From: an uncultured Oscillospiraceae bacterium
GTDB lineage: Bacteria; Bacillota; Clostridia; Oscillospirales; Oscillospiraceae
NCBI GenBank assembly: GCA_947585425.1
Contig: CANPWZ010000014.1
Location: forward strand, 1-48,793
Direction of reading: 5' to 3'
DNA length: 48,793 nucleotides
Part shown: piece after piece, positions 30,107 to 47,702 of the stretch
Layout: each line of letters opens with the position of its first letter
Numbering within the stretch: position 1 is the stretch's first letter
The notes under the pieces: generated by a model
The model's input: only the letters and a program-made list of their open reading frames with translations
Told to the model about the DNA's origin: nothing
Databases searched by the model: none
Translations under genes and position numbers: made by a program

Positions 30107-30110
30107 GGCC

Positions 30111-31100
30111 ATGGTCCACCGCCGCCTGATCTATCTGGCGGTCCTCCTGGCCGCCTTTGTCCTCCAGATCACCAGCGAGAGCTACCTGGGCCAGTTCGTG
30201 TTCGTGCTGACCCTGGCCCTGCCGGTGCTGTCCCTCCTGCTGTCCCTGCCGGGGATGCTGCGGACCAGGCTGGTCCTCACCGCCGGCCGTACCCGGGTCC
30301 TCCGCGGGGAGGGGGCCCGCTGGCGGCTGACGCTGGAGGCCCCCGCCGGGCTCCCCCTCTCCCGGCTGTCCCTGCGCCTCACCGAGCGCAACCTCTTCAC
30401 CGGGGAGACGCGGCGGCGCGCCGCCGTCCTGTCCGGGGCCCCCGTGGAGCTGGACGCGGACACCGGCCACTGCGGCCTGCTGGAGCTGTCCGCCAGCCGG
30501 GTGAAGGTGCTGGACTATCTGGGCCTGTTCTCCCTGCGGCGGCCCGCGTCGGAGCCCGCCCGCATCCTGTCCGCCCCCATCGCCGGGGAGCTCCGCCCCG
30601 TCCCTCAGCCGGAGGGCGGGGCCCGGTACGTCTCCCCCGCAGGCGCCGCCCGGAAGGGTTCCGGGGAGGACTACGACCTGCGGGACTACCGCCCCGGCGA
30701 CCCGCTTCGGTCCGTCCACTGGAAGCTGTCCTCCAAGTGGGACGAGCTCATCGTCCGGGAGCGGACGGAGAGCCCCTCCCCCCTGCCCCTGCTCACCTTC
30801 GACCGGGACGGGGGAGCGGAGGATCAGGATCAGATCATGGACAAGCTGGAGGCCCGGTGCCGGTTCCTGCTGGCCGCCCAGCGTCCCTTTGCCGTGCTGT
30901 GGCCGGGCGGGGACGGCAAGCCCGCCCTCCGCCGGGTGAGCGACGAAAAGGAGCTGGAGGACTGCCTCACCGCCGTCCTCTCCTCCCCGCCGCCCCCCGC
31001 CGGGGCCAAACTGGACAGCCTCCCCAAACTCATCGAGCTGGCCGGGGAGCCCGTGTTCCGCCTCCACCTCACCGCCGGAGAGGAGGACAGCTATGGATAA
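30111..31100 (+). CDS. DUF58 domain membrane protein
   Basis: 329 residues, ATG 4 nt after the MoxR stop. Two helices near the N-terminus (residues 5-45) precede a beta-rich region and the DUF58 signature GEDYDLRDYRPGDPLRSVHW with KLSSKWDELIVRE. DUF58 proteins work with MoxR ATPases and transglutaminase-like partners; exact activity unknown. It overlaps the next gene by 8 nt. Confidence 0.9.
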   Translation: MVHRRLIYLAVLLAAFVLQITSESYLGQFVFVLTLALPVLSLLLSLPGMLRTRLVLTAGRTRVLRGEGARWRLTLEAPAGLPLSRLSLRLTERNLFTGETRRRAAVLSGAPVELDADTGHCGLLELSASRVKVLDYLGLFSLRRPASEPARILSAPIAGELRPVPQPEGGARYVSPAGAARKGSGEDYDLRDYRPGDPLRSVHWKLSSKWDELIVRERTESPSPLPLLTFDRDGGAEDQDQIMDKLEARCRFLLAAQRPFAVLWPGGDGKPALRRVSDEKELEDCLTAVLSSPPPPAGAKLDSLPKLIELAGEPVFRLHLTAGEEDSYG

Positions 31101-33465: not shown

Positions 33466-33484
33466 CTGACAGGAGGTAATGACT

Positions 33485-34045
33485 ATGATCCCGACGCCGG
33501 AACAGGCATGGCAGCTGCTGTGCCGCTACAACGAGGGGGACTTCCACCGCAGGCACGCCCGCACCGTGGGCGACGTGATGCGCTGGTTCGCCGTGGACCA
33601 GGGCTTCGCCGACGAGGCCGACTACTGGGAGGCGGTGGGCGTCCTCCACGACCTGGACTTTGAGCGCTGGCCCGATGAACACTGCGTCAAGTGCCAGGAG
33701 CTCATGCGGGCCGAAGGCATCGACGAATCCCTCATCCGCTCCGCCGCCAGCCACGGCTGGGGGATGACCGGGGCGGACATCGAGCCCGTCCACCAGATGG
33801 AGAAGATCCTGTTTGCCGCCGACGAGCTCACCGGCCTCATCGGGGCCGTGGCCATCATGCGGCCCTCCAAAAGCGTGGACGACCTGGAGGTCAAGTCGGT
33901 GAAAAAGAAGTTCAAGGACAAGAAGTTCGCCGCCGGCTGCTCCCGGGACACCATTCAGCTGGGAGCGGACCGCCTGGGCTGGACCCTGGACGAACTCATC
34001 GAGAAGACCATCCTGGCCATGCGGGAGAGCCCCGCAGTGGATTGA
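33485..34045 (+). CDS. HD-domain hydrolase
   Basis: 186 residues. ATG 33485 is taken because AGGAGG lies 8 nt upstream; an ATG at 33479 is only 2 nt from it. The HD superfamily metal site is seen: RRHARTVGDVM, then His55-Asp56 in GVLHDLDFE, then SHGWGM, then AADELTGL. Such proteins are phosphohydrolases acting on nucleotides or related compounds. It follows the TgpA-like gene by 19 nt and ends the operon. Confidence 0.85.
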   Translation: MIPTPEQAWQLLCRYNEGDFHRRHARTVGDVMRWFAVDQGFADEADYWEAVGVLHDLDFERWPDEHCVKCQELMRAEGIDESLIRSAASHGWGMTGADIEPVHQMEKILFAADELTGLIGAVAIMRPSKSVDDLEVKSVKKKFKDKKFAAGCSRDTIQLGADRLGWTLDELIEKTILAMRESPAVD

Positions 34046-34057
34046 ACAGAGCGGCTG

Positions 34058-34090
34058 AGAGCCGTCCGCGAAAGCGGGCGGCTCTTTTTT
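34058..34090 (+). terminator. Intrinsic terminator after the HD gene
   Basis: 12-bp stem (34058-34069 with 34074-34085, loop GAAA, one G-T pair) followed by six T. It separates the MoxR operon from the signalling island. Confidence 0.92.
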
Positions 34091-34139
34091 CGCGCCCGTC
34101 CGGGGGAGGAAAGAAGTTCGACGGCGGGAAAGCCTCCGA

Positions 34140-34199: not shown

Positions 34200-34808
34200 A
34201 TGTTGACGTTGGCGATCTGGATCGTGGTAAACGGGGCCATCGGGGCCCTGGTGGGACTCATCCCCTATTTCCTCTGCAAAAGCCAGCTGAAGCCCAATAT
34301 GGCCCAGCTGGCCCTGCTGTGCTGCACCATCGGCGGGGCCGTCGTGTTCGGCCTGGCGGTGCTGGTGGCCATCGGGTTCGGCGTCGCCGCCTTTGTCAGC
34401 GCGGGCGACACCGCCCCCGTCTTCCGGCGGAAGCCTCCCGCCGCCCCGGCGGCTCCCCAGCCCGGCCCCGCCTACTACGAGTACAATGACCAGTCCCGGC
34501 TGGGCCTCCGTTGTCTGTCCGGCCCCATGAAGGGCCGGGTCTACCCGGTGGGCAGCGACGGGATCATGATGGGCCGGGATTACGACTGCGCCGTCCGCTT
34601 CGACCCCCAGACCCCCGGCATCAGCCGCCACCACTGCTCCATCCGCTGGTACCAGGGAGGGGCGGCCCTGGTGGACCTGGGCTCCAGCTACGGCTCATTC
34701 CTGGCAAACGGCACCAGGCTCCCCCCCAACTATCCCACCGCCGCTCAGGTGGGGACCCGGTTCTACCTGGGCACCCCCGCCAACCTGTTCGAGCTCATCC
34801 AGATGTGA
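34200..34808 (+). CDS. Membrane-anchored FHA domain protein
   Basis: 202 residues; the ATG has only a moderate ribosome site (AAAGGCGG). Two N-terminal helices (about residues 3-25 and 35-65) are followed by a Pro/Ala linker and a cytoplasmic C-terminal FHA domain: MMGRDYDCAVRF, then GISRHHCSIRW, then SSYGSFLANGTRL. The Arg, Ser, His and Asn positions that bind phosphothreonine are all present. First gene of the kinase/phosphatase island. I infer a membrane reader of phosphorylated partners. Confidence 0.88.
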   Translation: MLTLAIWIVVNGAIGALVGLIPYFLCKSQLKPNMAQLALLCCTIGGAVVFGLAVLVAIGFGVAAFVSAGDTAPVFRRKPPAAPAAPQPGPAYYEYNDQSRLGLRCLSGPMKGRVYPVGSDGIMMGRDYDCAVRFDPQTPGISRHHCSIRWYQGGAALVDLGSSYGSFLANGTRLPPNYPTAAQVGTRFYLGTPANLFELIQM

Positions 34809-34849
34809 TCTGACCACACAAATATATCAAAAAACAGGAGGAAAACGAG

Positions 34850-35530
34850 ATGGAAATCAAGAACGATCTGGTCCAGTGCCCCAACGGCCACTATTACAAC
34901 GCGGCGGTCCACACCGCCTGCCCCATCTGCGGCAACGTGGCCGTCCAGGGCGGGCAGGGGAACTTCCCGCCCACTGAGAAGCCGGGGATGGGCGCCGCCG
35001 TGCCCCCCACCGGCGGCGGCGCGGGCAATTTCCCGCCCACGGAGGACCCGAACCGCTCCGGCGGCGGAGCCATGCCCGGCGGCATCGGCGCCACTGAGCC
35101 CGCCGGCGGCTGGAGCGGCGGGGGCGGCGTAAATCCCTTCAGCCAGCCTACCGTCATCGGCGGCGATATGGCCGCCGCCGGCCAGGTGGACCCGGTGGTG
35201 GGATGGCTGGTGTGCGTGGACGGGCCGGTGCGCGGCACCGACTGGCGGCTCCACGCGGGCTATAACTACATCGGCCGGGAGGCGGGCGACATCCACATCC
35301 AGGGCGACAGCCAGATCTCCCGTGAGAAGCACGCTATGGTGGCCTATCACTACAAGAACCGCACCTATTACGTGGGCCCGGCGGAAGGCCGCAACATCAT
35401 CGAGGTCAACGGCGAGCCGGTGTTCAACGCCACCAAGCTCAACAGCCGCGACGTGATCACCATCGGCACCACCAAGCTCATGTTCGTGCCGCTGTGCGGC
35501 GAGGACTTCGCCTGGGATCAGGAGAACTGA
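34850..35530 (+). CDS. Zinc-ribbon FHA domain protein
   Basis: 226 residues, ATG preceded by CAGGAGGAAAACG. An N-terminal CPNG...CPICG pair looks like a zinc ribbon. A Gly/Pro-rich middle carries two copies of GNFPPTE, near residues 37-45 and 61-70, each with a Thr next to Glu. The C-terminal FHA domain has YIGREAGDIHI, QISREKHAMV and IIEVNGEPV. It is soluble, with no membrane helix. The repeated PPTE sites may be phosphorylated by the island kinases and recognised by FHA domains, as with GarA/FhaA-type proteins; this is inference. Confidence 0.87.
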   Translation: MEIKNDLVQCPNGHYYNAAVHTACPICGNVAVQGGQGNFPPTEKPGMGAAVPPTGGGAGNFPPTEDPNRSGGGAMPGGIGATEPAGGWSGGGGVNPFSQPTVIGGDMAAAGQVDPVVGWLVCVDGPVRGTDWRLHAGYNYIGREAGDIHIQGDSQISREKHAMVAYHYKNRTYYVGPAEGRNIIEVNGEPVFNATKLNSRDVITIGTTKLMFVPLCGEDFAWDQEN

Positions 35531-35531
35531 T

Positions 35532-36416
35532 ATGATTGAGACGATCGTGACCTGCGCCGCCGTGGTGGCGGTAGAGCTTGTGACCACGGCCCTGGCCGTG
35601 GCGGCGGCCCTCCTCATCGAGCGGGCGGCCCGGCCCCGCTGGGAGGCCCAGGCCGCCGCCCGCCCTCAGGCGCCCAGCCCCATTCCCCAGGTGGGCAAGC
35701 TCCACCAGCAGGGGGCCCGGAAGAGCCAGCAGGACTGCTTCTCCGTCTCCCCGGAGGAGACGGTCCCCTCCTACGGCCTGCTGTGTGTGGTGGCCGACGG
35801 CATGGGCGGCCTCGCCGACGGGGACAAGGTGAGCCAGGCGGCGGTATCCGCCATGATGAACAGCTTTTACACCACCCCCGGCAAGCCGGAGGAGCTGCTG
35901 CTCACCCTGCTGGCCCGGGCCAACGAGGCGGTGGACCAGCTGCTGGGCCCCGACGGATACACCAAAAGCGGCTCCACCCTGGTGGCCGGCCTCGCCCGGG
36001 AGGGAAAATTCTACAACCTGTCCGTAGGGGACAGCCGGGTGGCCCTGTACCGGGACGGCGTGTTCTACCAGCTCAACCGGGAGCACATCTTCCTCCATGA
36101 GCTGGAGCTGCGGGCGGTGAACGGGGAGAGCGGCTTCCGGGACGCCTATTCCCATCCCAAGGGGGGCGGCCTCACCAGCTACCTGGGCATGGGCAAGCTG
36201 AAATATGTCGATATGCCCGCCGCGCCGGTGGAGATCCGGGCGGGAGACAAATTCCTGCTGATGACCGACGGCGTGTACAACGCCCTGTCCCGGGAGGAAC
36301 TCACCGCCTGCCTGGAGGGCTCCGCCCAGGAGTGCGCCGACCAGCTGGACGCCGCCGTCCGGGCCAAGGGCTACTCCAATCAGGACAACTATACCGCCGT
36401 GATCCTGGCCTACTGA
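35532..36416 (+). CDS. Membrane-anchored PP2C-type Ser/Thr phosphatase
   Basis: 294 residues, start 1 nt after the preceding stop. An N-terminal helix (residues 5-32) anchors a cytoplasmic PP2C domain. Metal-binding motifs: KSQQDCF, where the usual NED reads QQD with Asp kept; VVADGMGGLADGD; SVGDSRVALYRDG; LMTDGVYNAL; and DNYTAVIL. It reverses Ser/Thr phosphorylation, most likely that made by the two kinases in the same gene run. Confidence 0.9.
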   Translation: MIETIVTCAAVVAVELVTTALAVAAALLIERAARPRWEAQAAARPQAPSPIPQVGKLHQQGARKSQQDCFSVSPEETVPSYGLLCVVADGMGGLADGDKVSQAAVSAMMNSFYTTPGKPEELLLTLLARANEAVDQLLGPDGYTKSGSTLVAGLAREGKFYNLSVGDSRVALYRDGVFYQLNREHIFLHELELRAVNGESGFRDAYSHPKGGGLTSYLGMGKLKYVDMPAAPVEIRAGDKFLLMTDGVYNALSREELTACLEGSAQECADQLDAAVRAKGYSNQDNYTAVILAY

Positions 36417-36442
36417 GCGGGACCGGGGGAAGGAGGCGCCAA

Positions 36443-37159
36443 ATGCTTCAAACAGCGAGTTATACCGACATCGGCGGCCGCCCCGCCAACGAGGACACCA
36501 CCCGGCAGGTCCGCCTGGACGGGGACCGGCTGTGCCTGGTGGTGGCCGACGGGCTGGGAGGCCACGGCGGAGGCGCCCTGGCCTCCGCCGCCGCCGCGGA
36601 CGCCATCTGCCGGGCATGGGGCGGCGAGGCCGACGCCGACGGCCTCCGGGAGCTGGTGCTTCTGGGCCACCGGGCGGTAACGGCCATCCAGACTCCCGAG
36701 TGCGCCATGAAGAGCACCGTGGTGGCCCTGGAGCTGGAGGGCAGCCGGGCGGTCTGGGCCCACGTAGGGGACTCCCGGCTGTACCATTTCCAAAACGGGA
36801 AGCTGACCTTCCAGACCAGGGATCACAGCGCCTCCCAGCTGGCCGTGTTCATGGGGGAGATCACCGTGGACCAGATCCGCTTCCACGAGGACCGCAACCG
36901 GGTCCTTCGGGCCCTGGGGCAGGACGACCCCCCCACGGTGGAGACAAAAGAGACCGATCTGGACCCCGGAAAGCACGCCTTCCTGCTGTGTTCCGACGGG
37001 TTCTGGGAGTACGTGCTGGAAAAGGAGATGGAGGAGGACCTGGCCGCCGCGTCCGGCCCGCTGGACTGGCTGGCGCGGATGCGGAAGCGCCTGACGGGCC
37101 GGGTGCCCCCCGACAACGACAACAACACCGCCGCCGCCGCGTGGCTGGACGTGACCTGA
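36443..37159 (+). CDS. Soluble PP2C-type Ser/Thr phosphatase
   Basis: 238 residues from ATG 36443, preceded by GAAGGAGGCGCC. A compact PP2C domain without a membrane helix: GRPANEDTT, VVADGLGGHGGG, HVGDSRLYHF, LLCSDGFWEY and NDNNTAAAAW. A second, differently localised phosphatase in the same island, 26 nt after the first. It may act on soluble FHA proteins while the anchored one acts on the kinases. Confidence 0.9.
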   Translation: MLQTASYTDIGGRPANEDTTRQVRLDGDRLCLVVADGLGGHGGGALASAAAADAICRAWGGEADADGLRELVLLGHRAVTAIQTPECAMKSTVVALELEGSRAVWAHVGDSRLYHFQNGKLTFQTRDHSASQLAVFMGEITVDQIRFHEDRNRVLRALGQDDPPTVETKETDLDPGKHAFLLCSDGFWEYVLEKEMEEDLAAASGPLDWLARMRKRLTGRVPPDNDNNTAAAAWLDVT

Positions 37160-37199
37160 GCATCCCGGAGCGCAGAAAGAGAATCGAGGAGGAACGACC

Positions 37200-38633
37200 A
37201 TGAAAAAACGGATCGTATGTGTTTTAACGGCCCTTATGCTGCTTTGCCTCCTGACGGCAGGATGCGCGGGCGGCGGAAACGGGGCCAGGGAGGCCCGCGG
37301 CGGCGTGGCGCGGGTGCTGTCCATCTACGGGAACTGCACCGTGTACTACCTGGATCTGGAGACCCAGGATGTGGGCGTGTATTCCACCGGCGAGACCCTC
37401 ACCGCCACCGGCTCCGCCTTCGGCGTGGGGAACGCGGGGAAGGAGACCGACGTGTTCGTCACCAACCGCCATGTGGTGAGCCGGCTGGACATGGAGATCC
37501 TGGGCTTTCTCGACGACACCACGGTGCTGGTGGCCGACGGCAGCCTGACCAACGTATACCTGCTGAAGGACGACTACGCTTACAGCACCGGCGCCGGCCT
37601 GGACACCAGCCGCGCCGTGCCCTGCCGGGTCATCTATGAGGCCGATGACCGCAGCGCCGACCTGGCCGTCCTCCGGGCGGCGGAGCCCATGGAGGGCCGG
37701 GTGGCCCTGCCCCTGCTGGACGAGAAGGAGGAGCTGGAGGCCGGCGACGCCGTGTACGCCCTGGGCTTCCCCGGCAGTACCGACGACGCCTCCCTGGACT
37801 CCGAGGGCAACCACGACTATGCCGGCAGCGTGAACAGCGTCACCCTCACCAACGGCGTGGTGTCCCTCCACACCACCTATACCGACGACAACGATGTGCG
37901 GATCAACGTGCTCCAGCACACCGCCCAGATCAACCACGGCAACTCCGGCGGCCCCCTGGTGGACGAGCGGGGCGTGGTGGCCGGCGTGAACACCTGGATC
38001 GACGGGCAGGACCTGTCCACCGGCGACCGAATGAACTCCTACTCCATCGAGATCTCCTATGTCCGGGACGTGCTGGACAGCCTGCACATCGACTATGACA
38101 CCTCCGCCGGAGGCGGGGTCCCCGTCTGGCTCATCGTGGCCATCGTGGTGATCGTGCTGGCCGCCGCCGGCGCGGTGGTGTTCCTGAAGGTCCGGGGCGT
38201 GCCCTCCACGGCGGCCCCCGCTCCCGCGTCCCAGTCGGTCCCCGTGTCCGCTCCCGCGCCGCAGCCGGCCCCACAGCCCGCACCCCAGCCCGCGCCCCAG
38301 CCCATCGCCGGGGACAGCGGCCTGCGCATCCAGGGGACGAGCGGCCTGTTCGCGGGGCGGCGCTTCGCCATCGCGGGGCAGCTGCGCGTCGGCCGCGACC
38401 CCGCCCGGAACGACCTGGTCTACCCCGCCGACACCCAGGGGATCAGCGGCGTCCACTGCGTCCTGATCGCCGAGGGGGATCATGTGCTGCTGAAGGATCT
38501 TGGCTCCACCTACGGCACCTTTGTGGCCGGCAGCAGGCTGGCCGCCAGCCAGACGGTGTCCCTCCAGCCGGGAGAGGCATTCTCCCTCGGCTCGGAACAG
38601 GAGACGTTCGTCATTGTGAGAAAGGGCGGTTGA
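37200..38633 (+). CDS. Lipoprotein-type trypsin-like protease fused to a cytoplasmic FHA domain
   Basis: 477 residues, ATG preceded by GAGGAGGAACGACC. The N-terminus has a lipobox (LLTAGC). An HtrA-type trypsin domain follows with His91 (TNRHVVS), Asp154 (DDRSADLAVL) and Ser249 (HGNSGGPL), so the triad is complete; no PDZ is seen. A helix near 308-330 crosses the membrane, then a PQPAPQPAPQ linker and a C-terminal FHA domain: RVGRDPARND, GISGVHCVLI, GSTYGTFVAGSRL. The usual NG after the strand reads AG here. I infer an outside protease whose state is coupled to phospho-signals inside, or the reverse. Confidence 0.87.
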   Translation: MKKRIVCVLTALMLLCLLTAGCAGGGNGAREARGGVARVLSIYGNCTVYYLDLETQDVGVYSTGETLTATGSAFGVGNAGKETDVFVTNRHVVSRLDMEILGFLDDTTVLVADGSLTNVYLLKDDYAYSTGAGLDTSRAVPCRVIYEADDRSADLAVLRAAEPMEGRVALPLLDEKEELEAGDAVYALGFPGSTDDASLDSEGNHDYAGSVNSVTLTNGVVSLHTTYTDDNDVRINVLQHTAQINHGNSGGPLVDERGVVAGVNTWIDGQDLSTGDRMNSYSIEISYVRDVLDSLHIDYDTSAGGGVPVWLIVAIVVIVLAAAGAVVFLKVRGVPSTAAPAPASQSVPVSAPAPQPAPQPAPQPAPQPIAGDSGLRIQGTSGLFAGRRFAIAGQLRVGRDPARNDLVYPADTQGISGVHCVLIAEGDHVLLKDLGSTYGTFVAGSRLAASQTVSLQPGEAFSLGSEQETFVIVRKGG

Positions 38634-38634
38634 T

Positions 38635-41148
38635 ATGGATTTCTGTCCCCACTGTATGTCCCCGATCCAGGGGAACGGAACGGCCTGCCCCGTCTGCGGG
38701 GGCGACCTGACCTGGAAGGGCCAGGCCGGCATCGACCTGCCGGTGGGCACGGTGCTCACCGGGGGCAATGGCCTGCGCTCCTTCATCATCGGCGCGGCCC
38801 GGGGCAAGGGCGGCTTCGGCATCACCTATGTGGCCATGGAGACCCACTCCCACAGGCGGGTGGCCATCAAGGAATACTTCCCCACCCGGTGCGCCTTCCG
38901 CGCCGGCAACGGGGTGAACGTCCAGGCCATGACCAGCCAGGACAGCGCCTTCCAGGGCGGCATGCGGAGCTTCCTGGAGGAGGCCCGGATGCTGCTGGCC
39001 CAGGAGGATCTGCCCACCGTGGTGAAGGTCATCGACTACTTCCAGGCCAACGGCACCGCCTATCTGGTGATGGAGTACCTGGACGGCGTGGCCCTCCACA
39101 ACCAGATGATCAAGATGGGCGGGCGCATCCCGGCGGGTGAACTGCTGCCCCGGATGGAAAAGCTGATCCGGGACATGGGCCTGCTCCACAGCCGGGGGGT
39201 CATCCACCGGGACGTGAGCCCCGATAACATCATGTGGATGCCCGACGGGGGCCTGAAGCTCATGGACTTCGGCTCCGCCCGCTCCACCGAGGACGGCAAG
39301 TCCATGACGGTGCTGCTGAAGCAGGGGTTCTCCCCCATCGAGCAGTACCGCTCCCGGGGCCAGGGGCCCTACACCGACGTGTACGCCCTGGCCGCCACCA
39401 TCTACTACTGCCTGACGGGGACCATCCCGCCCTCCGCCGTGGAGCGGCTGGACGCGGACCCCCTCCAGCCCCCCAACAGCCTGGGGGCGGGCATCACCGC
39501 CCGGCAGGAGGAGGCCATCCTCTGGGGCCTGACCGTCCAGCCGAAAGACCGGCCCCAGACTATGGAGGAATTCGCAGCCCGGCTCTATCAGCCGGAGGCC
39601 GCCTCTGCCCCGCACCGGCCGGCCGCCGTCCCGCCCACCGGCCCCGGGCCGGAGCCCCAGGCCCAGCAGCAGACCCAGTGGCAGACCCAGCAGCAGGCCC
39701 AGCCCCAGCAGGCTCAACCCCAGACCCAGCAGCAGGCCCAGGCCCCTCAGGAAGAAGTCAATCCCCCGTACGCGTCCGGCGGGAACGGGCAGGAGGCCGG
39801 CACCCCCATCGGCCGGCTGGCCGATGGGCTGAAGGAGAGATTCAGCGCGGGCGGAGATAAAAAGCCCTCGCGTATGAAGCGAATAGCGGTGACTGTCGTG
39901 GGTGCGATCGTGTGCATACTGGTTTCGGTACCCGTCAGCCTGTGGATGCAGGATGTGCTGGACCGCCCTTCCACCCAGCATACGCCGCCGCCCGTCTTCT
40001 CCTCCGCGCCCAGCTTCGTCCTGCCCACCAGCACCCCCATCCTCCCCAGCACCGGGCTCGACATCACGGAGACCGGCGTCACTGAGGACGGCTACTCCTA
40101 CGAGATCTACGGCGGGGAATACGCCGTCCTCACCGGCTTTGAGGGGAACGGGACCGCCGGCTTCATGCCCGACGACATCGACGGCGTGCCCATCACCGCC
40201 ATCGCGGACAACGCCTTCGCCGGGGTGCCCATGGGGGGCGGCGCTTTCCTGCCCATCGACCTGGAGACCATCGGCGCCGCCGCCTTCCGGGGCTGTTCCG
40301 ATCTGGAGCGCGTCTACGCCTACAGCGCCGTGACCACCCAGTCCAACAGCTTCCAGGGCGCCCCGCTCCATACGGTGCTGCTCAACAGCAGCTCCGCCAT
40401 CGGCGGCTGGGCTGTGCCGGAGGATTGCCGCATCTTCTTCTCCGGGATGCAAACAGCGGTCGGAAAGGTGACAGACTTCTATTACGGCCCCAACTGGGAA
40501 CTTTACGGGGTCACCGATCAGGATTCCGCCGTCCTGCTGGATGTGCCCGCCGGGACCACGTCGCTGACCCTCCGGGATACCGCCGGCAGCGATGACTGCC
40601 CGGTGCAGTATGTGGACGACGGCGCGCTGGACCGGCTCTCCTCCTCGGGCATCGCCATCCGCCTGCCGGACGCCTGCATCTTCGACTACTCTCTGTTCAG
40701 CAAGGCCGACTGGACCGCCGCGCCGGACACCGTCTCCAACGTATGGCTGGTCAACTGCGAACTGGCCGACGCCATCAACGCCATCCGGCCCCAGGGGGCC
40801 GTACGGGTCGCCCCCGACCTGGCCCTGGTAGCCCCGGCCGCCATCCGGGCAGGGGAGCTGCTGGAAAAATACGACTCGGTGCGGCCCGACGGCACCACCG
40901 GCTGGGACCTGCTGGACGAGCAGAATGTGGACCGGTCCTTTGGCGGCTCGTGCTATTCCCGGAACTATGATGACCTCAACGAGATCAGGAGCGACGGCTT
41001 CGACTTCATCCTGGAGTCCTACGGCGGCCCCATCACCGAGGAGCAGAGCAAATCCCAGGCCGGAAAGTATGTGGACCAGCTGGGCCTGGCCTGGGCGACG
41101 GAAGCTGACGGAGAACTGTCCTGGTTCTGTTATCTGATAATTTCCTGA
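38635..41148 (+). CDS. Transmembrane Ser/Thr kinase with zinc ribbon and BspA/LRR-like ectodomain
   Basis: 837 residues, start 1 nt after the protease stop. Zinc ribbon Cys4, Cys7, Cys18, Cys21; kinase domain about 45-320 with G-loop GKGGFGITY, Lys79 (VAIKEYF), catalytic Asp193 (HRDVSPDN) and Asp211 (DFGSAR). A Gln/Pro/Ala linker (about 325-380) carries 21-bp DNA repeats. The membrane helix is about 414-437. The outer part (440-837) begins with Thr/Ser/Pro and includes BspA-type leucine-rich repeats (ITAIADNAFAG, IGAAAFRGCSDLERV). Likely a surface-sensing kinase; the ligand is unknown. Confidence 0.92.
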   Translation: MDFCPHCMSPIQGNGTACPVCGGDLTWKGQAGIDLPVGTVLTGGNGLRSFIIGAARGKGGFGITYVAMETHSHRRVAIKEYFPTRCAFRAGNGVNVQAMTSQDSAFQGGMRSFLEEARMLLAQEDLPTVVKVIDYFQANGTAYLVMEYLDGVALHNQMIKMGGRIPAGELLPRMEKLIRDMGLLHSRGVIHRDVSPDNIMWMPDGGLKLMDFGSARSTEDGKSMTVLLKQGFSPIEQYRSRGQGPYTDVYALAATIYYCLTGTIPPSAVERLDADPLQPPNSLGAGITARQEEAILWGLTVQPKDRPQTMEEFAARLYQPEAASAPHRPAAVPPTGPGPEPQAQQQTQWQTQQQAQPQQAQPQTQQQAQAPQEEVNPPYASGGNGQEAGTPIGRLADGLKERFSAGGDKKPSRMKRIAVTVVGAIVCILVSVPVSLWMQDVLDRPSTQHTPPPVFSSAPSFVLPTSTPILPSTGLDITETGVTEDGYSYEIYGGEYAVLTGFEGNGTAGFMPDDIDGVPITAIADNAFAGVPMGGGAFLPIDLETIGAAAFRGCSDLERVYAYSAVTTQSNSFQGAPLHTVLLNSSSAIGGWAVPEDCRIFFSGMQTAVGKVTDFYYGPNWELYGVTDQDSAVLLDVPAGTTSLTLRDTAGSDDCPVQYVDDGALDRLSSSGIAIRLPDACIFDYSLFSKADWTAAPDTVSNVWLVNCELADAINAIRPQGAVRVAPDLALVAPAAIRAGELLEKYDSVRPDGTTGWDLLDEQNVDRSFGGSCYSRNYDDLNEIRSDGFDFILESYGGPITEEQSKSQAGKYVDQLGLAWATEADGELSWFCYLIIS
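39682..39741 (+). repeat. 21-bp direct repeat in the kinase linker
   Basis: A 21-base perfect repeat (39682-39702 and 39721-39741) 39 bp apart, in frame, encoding QTQQQAQ. It is a likely site of slippage that changes linker length without a frameshift. Confidence 0.85.
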
Positions 41149-41184
41149 TGTCTTTTCCCGAGAAATGATGTATGATAGAAATGA

Positions 41185-41200
41185 CCGCCCTGCCGGGCGG
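41185..41200 (+). other. Small GC hairpin before the second kinase's ribosome site
   Basis: CCGCCC-TGCC-GGGCGG, a 6-bp stem ending right at GAGAGAAGG. It could stabilise the mRNA or tune translation of the second kinase. Confidence 0.5.
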
Positions 41201-41217
41201 GAGAGAAGGTGACCGTA

Positions 41218-44200
41218 TTGGATCAGAAATACTGCCCCTATTGCATGACGCCGGTGACGCCGGGCGAGCCCTGCCCCACCTGCGGGCTCACCGAGGGCAG
41301 CTACCACCCCCAGCCCCACCATCTGCCCCCCGGCACCGTGCTGGCGGGCCGCTATCTCCTGGGCCGGGTGCTGGGCGAGGGCGGCTTTGGCATCACCTAC
41401 ATCGGCTGCGATACCCGGCTGGAGCTGCGGGTGGCGGTCAAAGAATACTTCCCCAGCAGCTGGGTGACCCGGAACAGCGCCGTCTCCCTTTCCGTGACCA
41501 GCTACGACGGCGTAGCCGGCCGGGGCTTCGACCAGGGCCGGGAGCGGTTCATCCGGGAGGCCCGCACCATGGCCAGGATGGACAAGACCCCCCAGATCGT
41601 GGGCGTGCGGGACTTCTTCCAGGAGAACAACACCGCCTATATCGTCATGGAGTTCGTGGAGGGCACCACCTTCAAGGAGCTGGTGGCCCAGCGGGGCGGC
41701 AGGCTTCCCGCCCGGGAGCTGCTGAGCATGGTGGAGCCCCTGTTCGGGGCCCTGAACGCCATGCACAAGCAGGGGCTCATCCACCGGGACATCAGCCCCG
41801 ACAACCTGATGCTGGAGAACGGCCAGGTGAAGCTGCTGGACTTCGGCTGCGCCCGGGAGTCCACCCACGGGGACGAGACCATGACCATCGTGCTCAAGCA
41901 GGGGTACTCCCCTGTGGAGCAGTACCAGCACAAGGGCCAGGGCCCCTGGACCGACGTGTACTCCCTGGCCGCCACCATGTACTACTGCATCACCGGCAAG
42001 ACCCCCGCCCAGGCCCTGGACCGCATCTGCGACGACGAGCTGGTCCCCCCCAGGAAGCTGGGGGCGGAGCTCACCGAGCAGGAGGAGCTGGCCCTGCTGT
42101 ACGGCATGGGGCTCCAGCCCTCCCGGCGGTTCCGCTCCATCCAGGAGTTCCACGCCGCCCTGTACGAGGGGGCCCCGGTGCCGCTGACCTCCCACTCCCT
42201 CCGGCCCGGGGAGGAACAGTCCTCCGCCGGCCAGCCCGGGCCCCAGCCTGGACCCGAACCTGAAACGGAGTCCGAGCCCCAAACCGGGCCCCAGCCTGGA
42301 CCCGAGCCCCAAACAGAGCCTGAGTCCAAAACGGAGCCCGAGCCCCAAACAGAGCCCCGTACCGAGACCGGGCCCTCCCCCGCCCCAAAGCCGGACAGGA
42401 AGAAGCGGATCGCCGCCATCGCGGCGGCAGCGGCGGCGGTGGTGGTGATCGCCGGCGTCGCCGTGGGGATCGGCGTCAGCCGCCATTCGGCGGGCGGGCC
42501 CACCCCCACGCCGGGCGGCTCCGAGCCCCCGCCGGCCTCCCAGCCCGTAGGGGATCAATATCTCCTGACGTCCACCCGCAAGCAGGACTTCCTGGACGCC
42601 CTGGCCGACGACAGCATCGGTTCTATCCAGTTCAGCACGCGGGTAGAGATAGAACTCGACGCGCCGGTGGAGATCACCAAGCCGCTGATCCTTGGGCTGG
42701 ACAGCGGGCTGATCTGCAACGGGCCGGCCTTCCTTCTGGCGGATGTGACCTTGGGACGCGGCTCCCATGCCTACTTCCGGGACGGCGCCACCATCTCGGC
42801 GGCGATGACGTGCAGAGAGGGCGCCTACGGGGAGATCAGCGGCGACCTGCTCACCGTCACCGACACGGGCCGGATCGCCGTGGAGGAGGGGGCCGATGTC
42901 AGCGCCTGGTCCTGCCGCCAGGTCATCATCGACGGCGGCAGCCTGGAGGTGGACGGACACTTCGGTACCGACGGCCTGCTGCGCACCCTGAACGGCGGTG
43001 CCGTCGCCATCACGGACACCGGCTGGGCGGACCTGACCGCCCTCTGGCTGGAGCGCGAGAGCGACTTCACCGGCAAGGACCGATTCTCGATAGACCCCAG
43101 CGCCCTCCTGGCGGCCAGCGAGGATGTCTTTGAGGGCGCCGAGCATGTACGCACCTATCAGGAGCTGGAAAACGCCGTCAATAACCGGCTGGTCACCGCC
43201 ATCGTGGTGGACGGCAGTTTTGCGGTGGAGCAGTATCTGGGCCTGAACAAGCCCACGCTCGTCAGCGAGGGCGTGGAGCTCTCCACCAGCTCCATGGACG
43301 GCCAGGGACTGATCCTCCGCGATCTGCTGGTCAACCGCGGGCGGATCACCTGCCATGTCCAGCCCGACCTCTCCTCGGGCGGGAGCTGCATCAATTACGG
43401 CGAGATAGACGCGGGTCTCTACAGCGATGGCGGCGGGTTCCTGCTCAACTACGGGGCGCTCAATATCCAGTTTACCCAGTGGATCAATTCCGTCATCGTC
43501 AACCTGGGGACCATGCGCCATGAGACCCGCCAGGGTGACCGGGAGTACATGGACCTGATCGGCGGGACCGTAGTCAATCTGGGCGAGTTCACCCTGGCCT
43601 CCGGCAACAGCCTGAGGCTGGGCGGCGGGGTCTACTGGAGCGGCCCCAACGGCGCCGTTACGGTGGAACAGGGCGCCGAGCTTTCCAACGCATCTCACAT
43701 CCATAGCCCCATCACCCTGGCGGGGCACCTGGACAACTTCGGCGGCGTCGTGGAGTTCGACTCCCCCGACTGGCTGACCCTGGACGGCGGGACCATCGAC
43801 GGCGGCCTCATCCAGACCCACGGCGCGGGCGCCCTGCTGGAGGACAACGAGAGCGTTCGGTGCGCGGTGCTCACCTGCAGGGAAGAGGACTGGGTCTATT
43901 TGGACGTGACCTCCTCCAATATGCTGCTGGACGCCCTCGACAGCACTTCCAGAGGGATCCGGGTGCCCGCGGGCAGCCACATCGTCCTGGATGGGCCCGT
44001 GACTGTCTCCAACACCCTGTGCATCGATACCGGCGCCTCTCTGACGGTGAACGGCGAGCTGATCATGGGTGCCGGCATCCTGTGCAACCGGGGCGAGCTG
44101 ACCCTGGGCGGGCTGACCATTCAGGAAGACGCCCAGCTCCAGAATAACGGCAGCATAACGATCACCGGCGGCGGGACCTTCGCGCTGAACGGCGGCACCG

Positions 44201-44799
44201 CGGTGCTGTGGGGGCCGGTGACGGCGGCCGACGACGCGGGCGAGCTTCGCCTGGACGGCGGGGCCAGGCTGGTCAACTGGAGCGAGATCAAGGGCTTTGG
44301 CGTCACAGTGGACGGCGGGGCCTATCTGGCCGACGCCTCCAACATATTCCTGCCCAACGGGACCGACCTCCGGGTGAACAGCGGCGTCCTTTCTGAGCGG
44401 AACCAGCTCGTCCTCAACGAGGGCGCGATCCATGTGGGCCGGGACGGGACTTTGACCGTCAACGGCGGCATCGATCTCTCAGAGACCTCCCTGGTCAACG
44501 AGGGGTGGTTCATGTCCAGCGCCGACTTCACCACCCGCGCGGGCGGCATCACCAACCGGGGAAATATGTCGATCTCCAGCTGGGATTGGCAGACGATAAG
44601 CCTTGACGGCACCCTGGAAAACCGCGGAAACCTGTTCACGAACAATGGGCAGTTCAACCAGATCAGAAACTACGGCGAGATCGACATCACCGATCCGGTG
44701 ACCGTCCTCGGTGAGATCCAAAACAACGGGCGGATCATCCTCTCTGGCGAAGGCGCCATCTACGGAACAGTCTCCGGCGACGCGCCGATCCACCAGTAA
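41218..44799 (+). CDS. Transmembrane Ser/Thr kinase with zinc ribbon and beta-solenoid-like ectodomain
   Basis: 1193 residues from TTG 41218 (MDQKYCPYCM). This start is preferred over GTG 41209 because GAGAGAAGG ends there, giving an 8-nt gap, and because the product then begins like the paralogous kinase (MDFCPHCM). Zinc ribbon Cys6, Cys9, Cys19, Cys22; kinase with GEGGFGITY, Lys75, Asp191 (HRDISPDN) and Asp208 (DFGCAR). A Pro/Glu/Thr linker precedes the helix at about 398-421. The outer ~770 residues show many NxG turns and short strands (LVNEGWF, ITNRGNMSI, LENRGNLF, IQNNGRIIL), like a right-handed beta-helix. Last gene of the run, followed by a terminator. Confidence 0.9.
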   Translation: MDQKYCPYCMTPVTPGEPCPTCGLTEGSYHPQPHHLPPGTVLAGRYLLGRVLGEGGFGITYIGCDTRLELRVAVKEYFPSSWVTRNSAVSLSVTSYDGVAGRGFDQGRERFIREARTMARMDKTPQIVGVRDFFQENNTAYIVMEFVEGTTFKELVAQRGGRLPARELLSMVEPLFGALNAMHKQGLIHRDISPDNLMLENGQVKLLDFGCARESTHGDETMTIVLKQGYSPVEQYQHKGQGPWTDVYSLAATMYYCITGKTPAQALDRICDDELVPPRKLGAELTEQEELALLYGMGLQPSRRFRSIQEFHAALYEGAPVPLTSHSLRPGEEQSSAGQPGPQPGPEPETESEPQTGPQPGPEPQTEPESKTEPEPQTEPRTETGPSPAPKPDRKKRIAAIAAAAAAVVVIAGVAVGIGVSRHSAGGPTPTPGGSEPPPASQPVGDQYLLTSTRKQDFLDALADDSIGSIQFSTRVEIELDAPVEITKPLILGLDSGLICNGPAFLLADVTLGRGSHAYFRDGATISAAMTCREGAYGEISGDLLTVTDTGRIAVEEGADVSAWSCRQVIIDGGSLEVDGHFGTDGLLRTLNGGAVAITDTGWADLTALWLERESDFTGKDRFSIDPSALLAASEDVFEGAEHVRTYQELENAVNNRLVTAIVVDGSFAVEQYLGLNKPTLVSEGVELSTSSMDGQGLILRDLLVNRGRITCHVQPDLSSGGSCINYGEIDAGLYSDGGGFLLNYGALNIQFTQWINSVIVNLGTMRHETRQGDREYMDLIGGTVVNLGEFTLASGNSLRLGGGVYWSGPNGAVTVEQGAELSNASHIHSPITLAGHLDNFGGVVEFDSPDWLTLDGGTIDGGLIQTHGAGALLEDNESVRCAVLTCREEDWVYLDVTSSNMLLDALDSTSRGIRVPAGSHIVLDGPVTVSNTLCIDTGASLTVNGELIMGAGILCNRGELTLGGLTIQEDAQLQNNGSITITGGGTFALNGGTAVLWGPVTAADDAGELRLDGGARLVNWSEIKGFGVTVDGGAYLADASNIFLPNGTDLRVNSGVLSERNQLVLNEGAIHVGRDGTLTVNGGIDLSETSLVNEGWFMSSADFTTRAGGITNRGNMSISSWDWQTISLDGTLENRGNLFTNNGQFNQIRNYGEIDITDPVTVLGEIQNNGRIILSGEGAIYGTVSGDAPIHQ
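42237..42305 (+). repeat. 21-bp direct repeat in the second kinase's linker
   Basis: A 21-base perfect repeat at 42237-42257 and 42285-42305, with a 48-bp period (16 codons), inside a longer degenerate PEPQTEPE-type array up to about 42365. In-frame length variation between strains is likely. Confidence 0.85.
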
Positions 44800-44814
44800 A
44801 TCACGATAAAAGGA

Positions 44815-44846
44815 GCGCCCGGCTCTGGGAGCCGGGCGCCCTTTTT
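44815..44846 (+). terminator. Intrinsic terminator of the signalling island
   Basis: Perfect 11-bp stem (44815-44825 with 44829-44839, loop TGG) followed by five T. The facing gene ends 9 nt further on. Confidence 0.93.
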
Positions 44847-44854
44847 CTATCCGC

Positions 44855-45955
44855 TCAGCGGACGTTTTCGTATAGCTTGTCGATGACCTGCTCCAGCCGG
44901 TCCGCCATGGACTCGTCGTCCGGGGCGGTGAGGGCGTAGCAGAACAGCCAGTCGGAGGCGCTGCGGGGGTCCAGCGGGGGCATCCCGCAGTCCAGCAGCA
45001 TGGCGTTGATGGTCCACCAGTGCCGGTCCAGCCGCTCCGCCGTGGTGAGGTAGTCCTCGTCCAGCTCGGAGTAGTCGTTGCCGGCGTTGCCGGTGATGAT
45101 ATATAGCAGCAGGAGCAGCTTGCGGGGCACATCGGACCGGCGGGCCAGGATGTTTTTCAGGGCGGTGGTGTTGGGCCAGCCCCGCTTGATGAGCTTCTGG
45201 GTGAGGGTATAGCCCGCCCGGGACTTGCCCGACGGCATCCCCAGGGTCAGATACTTCTCCATCACCGTGTCCAGGGAATAGGCCTCCTCCGGGGTGTCGT
45301 CCCAGGGGGAAACGGGGTGGATCAGGGCGTCCATGTAGTGGTAGAAATAGCGGTAGGCCCGCAGATGGAAGGCGCCGAACCGGCCCAGATTCTCCTCATA
45401 GCACCGGCGGAGCTCCTCCTCGGTGTGGGCCAGGGCGAACTGGTCCTGGAGCCGGTGGGTGATGGTATAGGGGTCCTCGCCGGGGGGCAGCCCGCCCCCC
45501 TTGGGGACGGGTGGCAGGGAGTCGAACAGGTCCCTGGCCTCCTGGTAGCCCATGCCCCGGCGGAGGCACCAGGCGTATACCACCTCCCGGCCCTCCCGGT
45601 AGTGGATGCCGAACTCGGTACACATCCCCAGCAGGGCGCCGGCCTGCTGCTCGCTCAGGTCCAGGGCAAAGGCCATGCGGAACAGGTCCTCCCTGCTCTG
45701 GGGGCGGCTGGCGCCCGCCAGCCAGTTGGCCACCTTCCTGTGGACCGAGGGAAGGGACTGCTCGCCCTCCCGGAAGGCGTTGATCAGGCGGATGGACAGG
45801 TCTGGATAGGGATACATCTCCCGGAGGGTGTCGTCGAACCGGCGCAGGGGGATGCGCTCGTCCTGGAGGTAGACGGCGGCCATGGCGGGGGTCATCTCGC
45901 CGGAGCGGATACGGCCAAACTCGCGCTCGCTGGCCTGGGTCAAGGTGGATTGCAA
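44855..45955 (-). CDS. HTH-like protein of unknown function facing the kinase island
   Basis: 366 residues from TTG 45955, 10 nt after AAAGGAG; a GTG at 45964 is too near that site. I do not recognise a named family. The N-terminal third contains an Xre-like segment (KVANWLAGASRPQSREDLFR, then MAFALDLSEQQAGALL), so DNA binding is possible. The rest is helical with many aromatic residues, including HLRAYRYFYHYMDALIHP and LKNILARRSDVPRKLLLLLY. No membrane helix or signal peptide. Its position against the kinase run suggests it regulates, or is a phosphorylation target of, that system; this is inferred from context only. Confidence 0.7.
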   Translation of the reverse strand: MQSTLTQASEREFGRIRSGEMTPAMAAVYLQDERIPLRRFDDTLREMYPYPDLSIRLINAFREGEQSLPSVHRKVANWLAGASRPQSREDLFRMAFALDLSEQQAGALLGMCTEFGIHYREGREVVYAWCLRRGMGYQEARDLFDSLPPVPKGGGLPPGEDPYTITHRLQDQFALAHTEEELRRCYEENLGRFGAFHLRAYRYFYHYMDALIHPVSPWDDTPEEAYSLDTVMEKYLTLGMPSGKSRAGYTLTQKLIKRGWPNTTALKNILARRSDVPRKLLLLLYIITGNAGNDYSELDEDYLTTAERLDRHWWTINAMLLDCGMPPLDPRSASDWLFCYALTAPDDESMADRLEQVIDKLYENVR

Positions 45956-46088: not shown

Positions 46089-46174
46089 TGGTGCGGATGA
46101 CGGGACTCGAACCCGTACGGCCGTGGGCCACTAGCACCTCAAGCTAGCCAGTCTACCAGTTCCAGCACATCCGC
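46089..46174 (-). tRNA. tRNA-Leu (anticodon GAG)
   Basis: Class II tRNA. Acceptor stem GCGGATG/CATCCGC (46174-46168 with 46099-46093), discriminator A and encoded CCA (46091-46089). Anticodon stem CTAGC/GCTAG with loop TTGAGGT; anticodon GAG is at 46140-46138. T-arm GGGTTCGAGTCCC and a long variable arm are present. Confidence 0.95.
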
Positions 46175-46213
46175 GTGTGCAATTTCGTGTGCAGTTTTCG
46201 CATCGCAGAGCCT

Positions 46214-46242
46214 ATTATAGCGTCGAGATCCTTTTTTGTCAA
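46214..46242 (-). promoter_or_regulatory. Consensus promoter of tRNA-Leu(GAG)
   Basis: Minus strand: TTGACA (46242-46237), 17-nt spacer, TATAAT (46219-46214). Perfect sigma-A consensus, fitting a stable RNA gene. Confidence 0.92.
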
Positions 46243-46257
46243 GAGAGAAAAAAACTG

Positions 46258-46286
46258 TTGACAACTGCCGCCCGCCGTGCTATTAT
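46258..46286 (+). promoter_or_regulatory. Promoter of tRNA-Leu(CAG)
   Basis: TTGACA (46258-46263), 17-nt spacer, TATTAT (46281-46286), about 33 nt before the tRNA. Back to back with the other tRNA promoter. Confidence 0.88.
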
Positions 46287-46318
46287 AATTCTCGCGTTGA
46301 GAAAACGTCAGCCCTTTT

Positions 46319-46405
46319 GCGCGAGTGGTGGAATTGGTAGACTCGCTGGCTTCAGGTGCCAGTGCTCGCAAGGGCGTGCGGGTTCGACTCCCGCCTCGCG
46401 CACCA
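46319..46405 (+). tRNA. tRNA-Leu (anticodon CAG)
   Basis: Class II tRNA. Acceptor stem GCGCGAG/CTCGCGC (46319-46325 with 46395-46401), A and encoded CCA at 46402-46405. Anticodon stem CTGGC/GCCAG, loop TTCAGGT, anticodon CAG at 46353-46355. T-arm CGGGTTCGACTCCCG. An integrase gene starts its 3' end 77 nt downstream, so this tRNA's 3' end is the probable integration site. Confidence 0.96.
46370..46405 (+). other. Probable attachment site of the integrated element (tRNA 3' end)
   Basis: Tyrosine recombinases of this kind usually recombine at the T-arm and 3' end of a tRNA gene, leaving an intact tRNA next to int. The matching second copy was looked for to the right and not found within the window, so the exact core is unknown. 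Confidence 0.4.
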
Positions 46406-46407
46406 GT

Positions 46408-46445
46408 AGAAAACCCTTGAAAGCCGCGGCTTTCAAGGGTTTTCT
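46408..46445. terminator. 38-bp perfect palindrome; terminator of tRNA-Leu(CAG) and of int
   Basis: Every base of 46408-46426 pairs with 46427-46445, with no unpaired loop in the DNA. TTTTC tracts occur at both outer ends. It begins 3 nt after the tRNA CCA and lies 37 nt from the int stop codon, so it can end transcription from both sides. Confidence 0.8.
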
Positions 46446-46481
46446 CTATGCCCTGAAAGCAGTTTTCCCTTATTTTTTCCC

Positions 46482-47702
46482 TTATGCGCTCTGTTTGCCC
46501 TCCCCGCCGACCGAGGCGATAAAGCGGTCCATGCGGTCCGCGCTGTCCTGCTTCATCCGCTCGGTCACATGGGCGTAGGTGTCCAGCGTAAAGGCGGCGG
46601 TGTGGTGCCCCAGGTTCTCCTGGACCGTCTTGATGTCGTCCCCGGCGCGCAGGGCGGCCACTGCGTAGCTGTGTCTTAAGTCGTGGAAGCGCGCCTCCGG
46701 GACCCCGGCCTGTTCGGCCAGGTTCTTGAAATGGAGGTAGACCGTCTGTGCGCAGAGATTCCCGCCCAACTCGTTGGTAAAGACCAAATCCCACTTGTTC
46801 TGCCATGCCTCTCCGGCAAACCGGCGGTTGGCCTCCTGCCGCTCTTTCTGGGTCTCCAGAAGCCCCATCACATATTTCGCGCAGGTAAGCACTCTGGATT
46901 TCCCGTTCTTGGGTGAGGACAGCACATAGACGCCCTTGGAGTTTCGGACCTTCTGGAGCTGCTGTTTGACGGTCACACGTCCGCTGGCGAAGTCCACGCA
47001 GTCCCAGGTGAGGCCCAGCACCTCCCCTTCCCTCATGCCAGTGAACAGGGTCACAAGATAGATCAGCTCATATTTGTGGCCGCGGATCGTCCGCATGAAG
47101 CGTTGGATGTCTTCCTCGTCCAGAGGCTTGATCTCCTTGCGCCGTATCCTGGGCAGCTCAGCGTGGTCGGCGGGATTCTTCGGGATCAGACCGATCCGAA
47201 CCGCCGTCGCCAGCGCCCGGTGCAGCGTGCCGTGGATGTTGGCCTTGGTCTTGGCGGACAGAGGCTCACCGGTGATCTTGTTGGTAAGGCCGTTGTAGAA
47301 CCGCTGGATGTCCATTGGCGTCAGCTTGCCCAGTCGGATGCCTCCCAAGATGGGCTTGATATGGATCTCGCAGTTTATGGAATAGCTGTCCACGGTGCGC
47401 GGCTTGACGTTCTTCAGGTAGTCAGCCAGCCATTGATCCAGCCAGTCGCTCAGCGTCATTTTGGAGGGCTCCACATAGCTCCCCTCATTGATGGAAACGA
47501 CGACCGTCTGTAATTTCTCCCGCACTTCTTTCTGAGTCTTCCCAGTAATGGATTTCTGAATCTGCTTCCCGGTGCCCGGATCAAAGCCCGTGGTGACTCT
47601 GGCCTCCCAGTAGGAATACGACTTCCCGTTTTTGCTGACGGTCTTTTTGCGGATCGTGCCTGAGCCCGATGCGTTCTTCTTATTTTTGGTGCCGTGCGGC
47701 AT
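46482..47702 (-). CDS. int: Tyrosine recombinase (phage/ICE-type integrase)
   Basis: 406 residues, ATG preceded by GAAAGGAGG. A basic N-terminal arm-binding region (KNGKSYSYWEARV, DPGTGKQIQKSITGKTQKEV) is followed by a SAM-like core-binding domain (LSDWLDQWLADYLKNVKPRT) and the catalytic domain. Catalytic residues: Arg in TGMREGEVLG, His340 and Arg343 (HDLRH), His366 (LGHH) and nucleophile Tyr376 (DTYAHV). It integrates and excises the element at tRNA-Leu(CAG). Its leader holds a large hairpin that may control translation. Confidence 0.95.
   Translation of the reverse strand: MPHGTKNKKNASGSGTIRKKTVSKNGKSYSYWEARVTTGFDPGTGKQIQKSITGKTQKEVREKLQTVVVSINEGSYVEPSKMTLSDWLDQWLADYLKNVKPRTVDSYSINCEIHIKPILGGIRLGKLTPMDIQRFYNGLTNKITGEPLSAKTKANIHGTLHRALATAVRIGLIPKNPADHAELPRIRRKEIKPLDEEDIQRFMRTIRGHKYELIYLVTLFTGMREGEVLGLTWDCVDFASGRVTVKQQLQKVRNSKGVYVLSSPKNGKSRVLTCAKYVMGLLETQKERQEANRRFAGEAWQNKWDLVFTNELGGNLCAQTVYLHFKNLAEQAGVPEARFHDLRHSYAVAALRAGDDIKTVQENLGHHTAAFTLDTYAHVTERMKQDSADRMDRFIASVGGEGKQSA

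Follow-up and report, generated by a model that had tools for sequence, protein, structure and literature searches.

What kind of system is encoded by a bacterial gene island in which Ser/Thr kinases, their phosphatases and FHA domains that read phosphothreonine lie side by side? The question is raised by contig CANPWZ010000014.1 of an uncultured Oscillospiraceae bacterium (GenBank assembly GCA_947585425.1), analysed here as a window of 48,793 nucleotides which is one entire contig of a 58-contig, 2.0 Mb genome. Seven genes on the forward strand (34200–44799) are met by a convergent 366-codon gene on the reverse strand (44855–45955), an arrangement described in the initial annotation from the sequence and now confirmed by open reading frames and Pfam. 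The seven products are a transmembrane (TM) FHA protein (FHA1), a zinc-ribbon-FHA protein (FHA2), two PP2C phosphatases (PP2Ca and PP2Cb), a protease-TM-FHA fusion (TRY) and two zinc-ribbon membrane Ser/Thr kinases (STK1 and STK2). Matches above the curated Pfam cut-offs were obtained for FHA (genes 1, 2 and 5), PP2C_2 (genes 3 and 4), Trypsin_2 (gene 5) and Pkinase (genes 6 and 7). With a probability of roughly 55%, we read the island as a self-contained, horizontally spreading transmembrane phospho-Thr circuit with two outputs, a regulator and a protease. Bacterial Ser/Thr kinases are few per genome, with targets that are pleiotropic rather than exclusive, according to the available part of PMC4601284; a kinase genetically locked to one regulator and served by dedicated readers and phosphatases would, if true, be a counter-example in a minimal eight-gene set.

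Recurrence and co-inheritance

The initial annotation took these genes for one system, and other genomes strengthen that claim: the arrangement recurs in other Oscillospirales, neither unique to this contig nor dispersed, and both gene order and catalytic residues are conserved across genera and families, the order also where the neighbouring genes are unrelated. With TRY as the query, nine of 149 other Oscillospiraceae genomes sampled matched at E ≤ 4e-23, one of them (G090) in the FHA part only. The order FHA2-PP2Ca-PP2Cb-TRY-STK1-STK2 is identical in G005, G117 and G136 and is kept until the contig end in G046, while G135 lacks PP2Cb and STK2 there; the regulator gene lies at the end of the cluster in G005 and G136 and at its front in G117. 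The regulator itself matched seven of 294 other Oscillospirales genomes sampled at E ≤ 1e-100 and four weakly, the strong matches being situated either at island-type clusters or next to a gene like STK2. The 84,980 species genomes scanned yielded at least 72 regulator loci, a lower bound because the search was seeded by two short peptide patterns. By submitters' names, the 60 loci placed in a tree belong to Oscillospiraceae (25), Lachnospiraceae (13), Clostridiaceae (Sarcina; 1) and Coriobacteriaceae (1), with 20 unplaced, and one additional partial match comes from an Atopobiaceae record. Flavonifractor sp. An82 and Negativibacillus massiliensis, whose records are not labelled as metagenome bins, are among the carriers. 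The island thus extends beyond one family and recurs in many gut bacteria in nearly constant order, more widely than the reading of one genome could show.

The proposed co-occurrence of the 366-residue gene with the island was also upheld. A kinase domain of the STK type lies within 4.5 kb of this gene at 51 of the 53 loci that have 4 kb or more of sequence on either side. The two exceptions, L106 and L108, are regulator copies without a kinase in the 21 kb read, and both follow a frame of equal length (552 codons). Where both flanks reach 9.9 kb or more (34 loci), we found one or more kinase sites at 32, two or more kinases at 31, two PP2C sites at 29, FHA2 at 27 and the protease domain at 27; the full set of two kinases, a pair of PP2Cs, FHA2 and the protease is present at 25 (STK1 and STK2 queries can cross-match, and these gene-set counts use separate sites). 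Among the nine incomplete loci, L106 and L108 have none of these genes, L082 has one kinase only, the cluster reaches the locus edge in L067, L074, L126 and L127, and L130 and L138 have no protease domain. Weak regulator relatives, four from the Oscillospirales sample and 11 from a further search, stand next to a kinase in 12 of 15 cases (exceptions G262, G551 and G618), in contrast to the source genome's HTH_3 matches, none of which (0/27) lies within 4.5 kb of a kinase; distant relatives pair with other kinases. A sister class (G068, G078, G071 and G008; loci L036, L039, L041 and L042) has an extra FHA protein beside FHA2, the PP2Cs and the kinases; three of the four show a vWA domain in it, two of them above a cut-off. 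The 366-residue gene is absent from the stretches read in this class, and in G008 an FHA protein without a protease takes the place of TRY.

When loci are compared in pairs, regulator identity rises and falls with that of the STK2 kinase (r = 0.85, 57 loci), the STK1 kinase (0.81), PP2Ca (0.80), FHA2 (0.78), PP2Cb (0.73) and the protease (0.70), and for each of these partners none of 500 permutations reached the observed r. These correlations show joint inheritance, not contact. Three congeners (G706, G727 and G703) align with the window through the MoxR-DUF58-transglutaminase-HD genes to base 34045 and then carry other genes; no island parts were found after the HD gene in the stretch read, which in G706 ends with the contig 4.4 kb on. 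The HD gene occurs in 27 other congeners, and of the eight examined only these three showed upstream synteny. The regulator tree mixes families, its starred branches forcing at least four changes of the Oscillospiraceae label and at least three of the Lachnospiraceae label, which in a quick tree with submitters' names is suggestive of transfer. Viral contigs gave 31 stretches fitting the search patterns, none of which was confirmed as the regulator, and plasmids gave no match.

Readers, phosphatases and the protease-FHA fusion

The features of the island are listed in Table 1; TM segments were called by hydropathy, and the residue counts given below for relatives are based on a simple open reading frame picker, which missed some genes.

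Table 1. Genes and terminator-like elements of the island in the 48,793-nucleotide window
Feature	Positions	Strand	Evidence
Terminator-like hairpin (intrinsic)	34048..34094	+	RNA fold −31.8 kcal/mol, z −4.8 vs shuffles
FHA1: two N-terminal TM segments and cytosolic FHA	34200..34808	+	PF00498 E 2.4e-12; hydropathy
FHA2: zinc-ribbon-like N-terminal cysteines and FHA, soluble	34850..35530	+	PF00498 E 6.8e-6
PP2Ca: one N-terminal TM and PP2C Ser/Thr phosphatase	35532..36416	+	PF13672 E 2e-14
PP2Cb: soluble PP2C phosphatase	36422..37159	+	PF13672 E 4e-8
TRY: HtrA-like trypsin 71-263, TM 311-329, FHA 396-464	37200..38633	+	PF13365 E 1.9e-18; PF00498 E 4.7e-14
STK1: zinc ribbon, Ser/Thr kinase, TM 417-435, LRR_5-like ectodomain	38635..41148	+	PF00069 E 1.1e-26
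STK2: zinc ribbon, Ser/Thr kinase, TM 401-419, repeat ectodomain of ~770 residues	41209..44799	+	PF00069 E 2e-34
Bidirectional terminator, STK2/regulator intergenic region	44813..44841	both	consensus scan; fold of hairpin at 44815, z −6.1
366-residue regulator candidate, all-helical, TTG start	44855..45955	−	XRE-like HTH, residues 39-114; Thr166 codon 45458-45460

That both kinases, both phosphatases and the protease possess complete catalytic motifs, as had been noted from the single sequence, agrees with their relatives, in which these residues are kept wherever they can be aligned. The Hanks-type Lys, HRD, Asn and DFG residues are conserved in 47/47 STK1 and 60/60 STK2 relatives, the motif residues of PP2Cb in 45/45 and those of PP2Ca in 48–49 of 49 (the other one unaligned), and the His, Asp and Ser of the TRY triad in 37, 38 and 38 of 38, respectively, the missing one again being unaligned. 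The FHA2 cysteines are present in 42 of 46 relatives and unaligned in the remaining four. The FHA Ser is conserved wherever aligned; the FHA2 His is replaced by Asp in 18 of 46 relatives and the Arg of the TRY FHA differs in six of 38, and some of these domains may therefore bind differently.

The predicted topology is equally constant, with one hydrophobic segment in 46/49 PP2Ca and two in 36/38 TRY relatives; FHA2, PP2Cb and the regulator have no TM segment, nor do 45/46, 45/45 and 70/71 of their respective relatives. In TRY, the first is a signal segment and the other a TM at 311–329, and as both are kept, the protease domain should be outside and the FHA inside. The solved chains that its trypsin domain matches at E ≤ 1e-6 all belong to Do-family proteases, HtrA and DegS among them. 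In the proposed circuit, the three FHA proteins would read the phosphorylation made by the kinases and, on the cytosolic side of the membrane, bring together these kinases, the membrane-bound PP2Ca and the HtrA-like protease; PP2Ca and PP2Cb would reset the phosphorylation. The exported protease may be one of its outputs; if true, the fusion would provide a route by which phospho-Thr inside the cell, bound by the cytosolic FHA, controls proteolysis outside.

The same fusion makes it conceivable, if somewhat unlikely, that the island serves envelope quality control, with FHA binding to the phosphorylated kinases gathering or activating the protease as the real output, and the HTH (helix-turn-helix) protein only tuning island expression. 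It is favoured by the exported HtrA/DegS-like domain with an intact triad, tied to a cytosolic FHA, and by three of the four sister-class members (G068, G078 and G071), which have no 366-residue gene in the stretches read but keep a protease-like domain. It is opposed by L130 and L138, a divergent Lachnospiraceae class in which the regulator is kept and no protease domain is seen, and by the lack of a shared operator in the promoters compared (see below).

Kinases and their ectodomains

The sensory side of the circuit would be formed by STK1 and STK2, which, with zinc ribbon and kinase inside the cell and, in STK2, a large variable repeat ectodomain, would read a cell-surface signal. Both kinases, like FHA2, begin with zinc-ribbon-like cysteine motifs. 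One TM segment follows the kinase domain in each, and one hydrophobic segment is kept in 40/47 STK1 and 51/60 STK2 relatives. The LRR_5 match of STK1 (E 0.0015) is below the cut-off, and fewer than about 100 residues lie beyond the membrane in 36 of 47 STK1 relatives. In STK2, median identity is 64% for the kinase domain vs 23% for the ectodomain, and fast-diverging ectodomains on a steady kinase would fit surface sensing. The envelope sensing proposed in the initial annotation, with the protease or the HTH-like protein as output, is a reasoned but putative role. The STK2 ectodomain is a probable beta-helix, as suggested by invariant N-x-G columns spaced 18–20 residues apart in six sequences together with sub-threshold G8 (E 9e-4) and pectate-lyase-like Pfam matches; it had no match among PDB sequences at E ≤ 0.1. 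The source genome has its own PASTA kinase adjoining a PP2C on another contig (C3), so that the island comes on top of this pair. Two further kinase-domain matches were recorded in this genome at L188 (G000:C57), with an integrase-like frame about 3.5 kb from the first.

Three distant regulator relatives adjoin kinases with NB-ARC/AAA domains (L063, 5702–8890; L186, 3193–6105; L187, 5517–8534), two of them with TPR, and these neighbours are possibly a second, intracellular sensor class.

Such NB-ARC neighbours would also be at home in anti-phage defence, in which a phage-triggered kinase (KKP- or PD-T4-6-like) or the protease would halt growth and the PP2Cs restrain it. The island's patchy distribution is in keeping with this, its kinase domains match the PADLOC models PD-T4-6/mad6, and two kinases plus a PP2C in one gene set resemble KKP, as far as that module is described in the available part of PMC11341870. 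However, the PADLOC matches reflect the kinase domain common to all such proteins, the large variable parts are predicted outside the cell, and the CSD and kinase-FHA fusions of KKP are absent from the Pfam tables of STK1 and STK2 at E ≤ 0.1, whereas the island has extra FHA, protease and HTH-like genes. KKP modules are located in prophages (PMC11341870, same portion); in contrast, relatives of the 366-residue protein were found neither in viral contigs nor in plasmids. We consider a defence role unlikely.

The 366-residue regulator candidate

The opposing gene had been called HTH-like, and this was borne out, if weakly. Residues 39–114 weakly match the HTH domains of CI and DdrO (XRE/Cro-CI-like), five of the eight short relatives scanned have an HTH family of Pfam as a match at E < 0.001, and three of three short ones score as phage transcription regulators. 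The longer 405-residue frame of the gene has no match in Pfam or NCBIfam (E ≤ 0.1) or PADLOC (E ≤ 0.01). The structural model, with a pLDDT (predicted local distance difference test) of 90, was built from 64 sequences and replaced a 10-sequence model with a pLDDT of 71.6. Left out of the 64-row alignment were 12 of the 72 loci, namely L124, L128, L132 and L137 as broken or partial matches and L068, L080, L081, L102, L108, L115, L127 and L136 as surplus to depth. No match was obtained with the profile against PDB sequences (E ≤ 10) or with the model against PDB and BFVD in Foldseek (E ≤ 0.001).

Among 66 aligned relatives, the most distant about 20% identical, residue 166 is Thr in 65 and Ser in one, and the +3 position is Leu, Ile, Val or Met in all 66; a hydrophobic residue at +3 suits PknB-like kinases and FHA partners. 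Within the protein, conservation is lowest in the preceding stretch 148–164 (30% mean), for which reason the most distant rows are placed less securely there. A model helix begins at 165, and by DSSP residue 166 is not its N-cap. Thr166 is the prime candidate for a phosphorylation switch, and a structural reason for the Thr is also possible. As the other output of the circuit, this transcription-factor-like protein with its XRE-type HTH would probably be switched by phosphorylation near its hinge.

Should the protein not bind DNA, it could be an adaptor or scaffold, a kinase substrate with an HTH-like helical fold. The matches of the short relatives to HTH and phage-regulator families speak against this, as does the predicted recognition helix, whose R73, K74 and N77 are nearly invariant in 10 sequences (in 64, only N77 at 90%), and we regard the adaptor as improbable.

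A common operator in operon and regulator promoters was sought in 40 pairs and rejected: the longest shared word averaged 8.8 without L088 vs 8.1 in shuffles. The mean is 14.1 with L088, whose promoters share one intergenic region, and two further pairs reach 12–13, one of them A-rich.

Island borders and flanking genes

Terminators on both sides, near 34058 and 44815, had been proposed to delimit the island. Both hairpins fold better than shuffled sequences, but the first, which is absent from the consensus terminator scan, follows the HD gene and so closes the upstream run rather than the island. This run (29165–34045) comprises MoxR ATPase, transglutaminase and HD-like genes and one that we take to be DUF58-like (no Pfam match at 1e-5), and is the block kept in the three congeners. 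At the right end, the island is adjoined by tRNA-Leu(gag) on the reverse and tRNA-Leu(cag) on the forward strand (within 46089–47702), and a tyrosine integrase (46482–47702, reverse strand) abuts the 3′ end of tRNA-Leu(cag); the integrase and this tRNA probably mark the edge of an integrated element continuing past the contig's right end. An antisense open frame of 1940 codons (38611–44433, reverse strand) spans both kinase genes and is probably a shadow of high-GC codon usage.

Comparison with known systems

A connection with a type VII secretion system (T7SS), as a detached regulator, is rejected as highly improbable: kinases, PPM phosphatases and FHA proteins are often contained in T7SSc–T7SSj clusters (PMC11217815, in the part available), and the island resembles these sets in Bacillota, but it has no EssC-like gene, WXG100 was unmatched in the source genome, and of the island genomes, tested for 30 of the 72 loci, 25 had none at E ≤ 0.001. 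The likeness to type VI secretion (T6SS) and mycobacterial sets, drawn in the initial annotation, holds for their logic but fails for membership, with TagH (VI_FHA) at 18.2 and 30.1 bits vs a cut-off of 120.25 and FhaB/FipA (NF049868) at 27.3, 22.7 and 33.3 bits vs 125. STK1 and STK2 have no PASTA domain, and the PASTA-kinase model NF033483 scores 128 and 171 vs 450. As the initial annotation stated, no secretion or wall-synthesis genes were recognised within the island. Zinc-ribbon kinase, PP2C and vWA triplets are contained in conflict systems, according to the portion of PMC7159879 available, and a description of the present gene set was not found among open-access literature by title. Kinase-FHA-phosphatase sets and kinase-regulator pairs are already known individually, and their combination here lacks the tested features of T7SS, T6SS, PASTA-kinase, KKP and FhaB sets.

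TRY is similar to HtrA, DegP and DegS in its exported trypsin-like domain with an intact triad; unlike HtrA and DegS, it has no PDZ match in Pfam at E ≤ 0.1 and possesses a C-terminal TM with a cytosolic FHA. The genes of the PknH-EmbR and PknL-Rv2175c pairs are neighbours. These pairs of a kinase and a transcription-factor substrate (PMC4601284, available part) resemble the island, in which a Ser/Thr kinase would likewise have a DNA-binding protein as its substrate. The island differs in its three FHA proteins, two phosphatases and linkage across families and in an XRE-like protein without FHA (no Pfam match to it in the 405-residue frame), whose all-helical model also sets it apart from the EmbR type (SARP-FHA).

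More tentatively, the island may be regarded as the Ser/Thr equivalent of two-component signalling, moving as a single unit, with exchangeable sensors (beta-helix, LRR and, distantly, NB-ARC/TPR), FHA readers, one XRE-type regulator switched at a single conserved Thr, and inside-out control of an exported protease via its cytosolic FHA. The actinobacterial cluster has the order fhaA-fhaB-pstP-rodA-pbpA-pknA-pknB. The island shares with it the succession FHA-FHA-PP2C-...-kinase-kinase, the FHA readers, one membrane phosphatase and membrane kinases; it differs in having neither rodA/pbpA nor PASTA, and adds another PP2C, the fusion of protease and FHA, and an HTH-like gene in convergent orientation.

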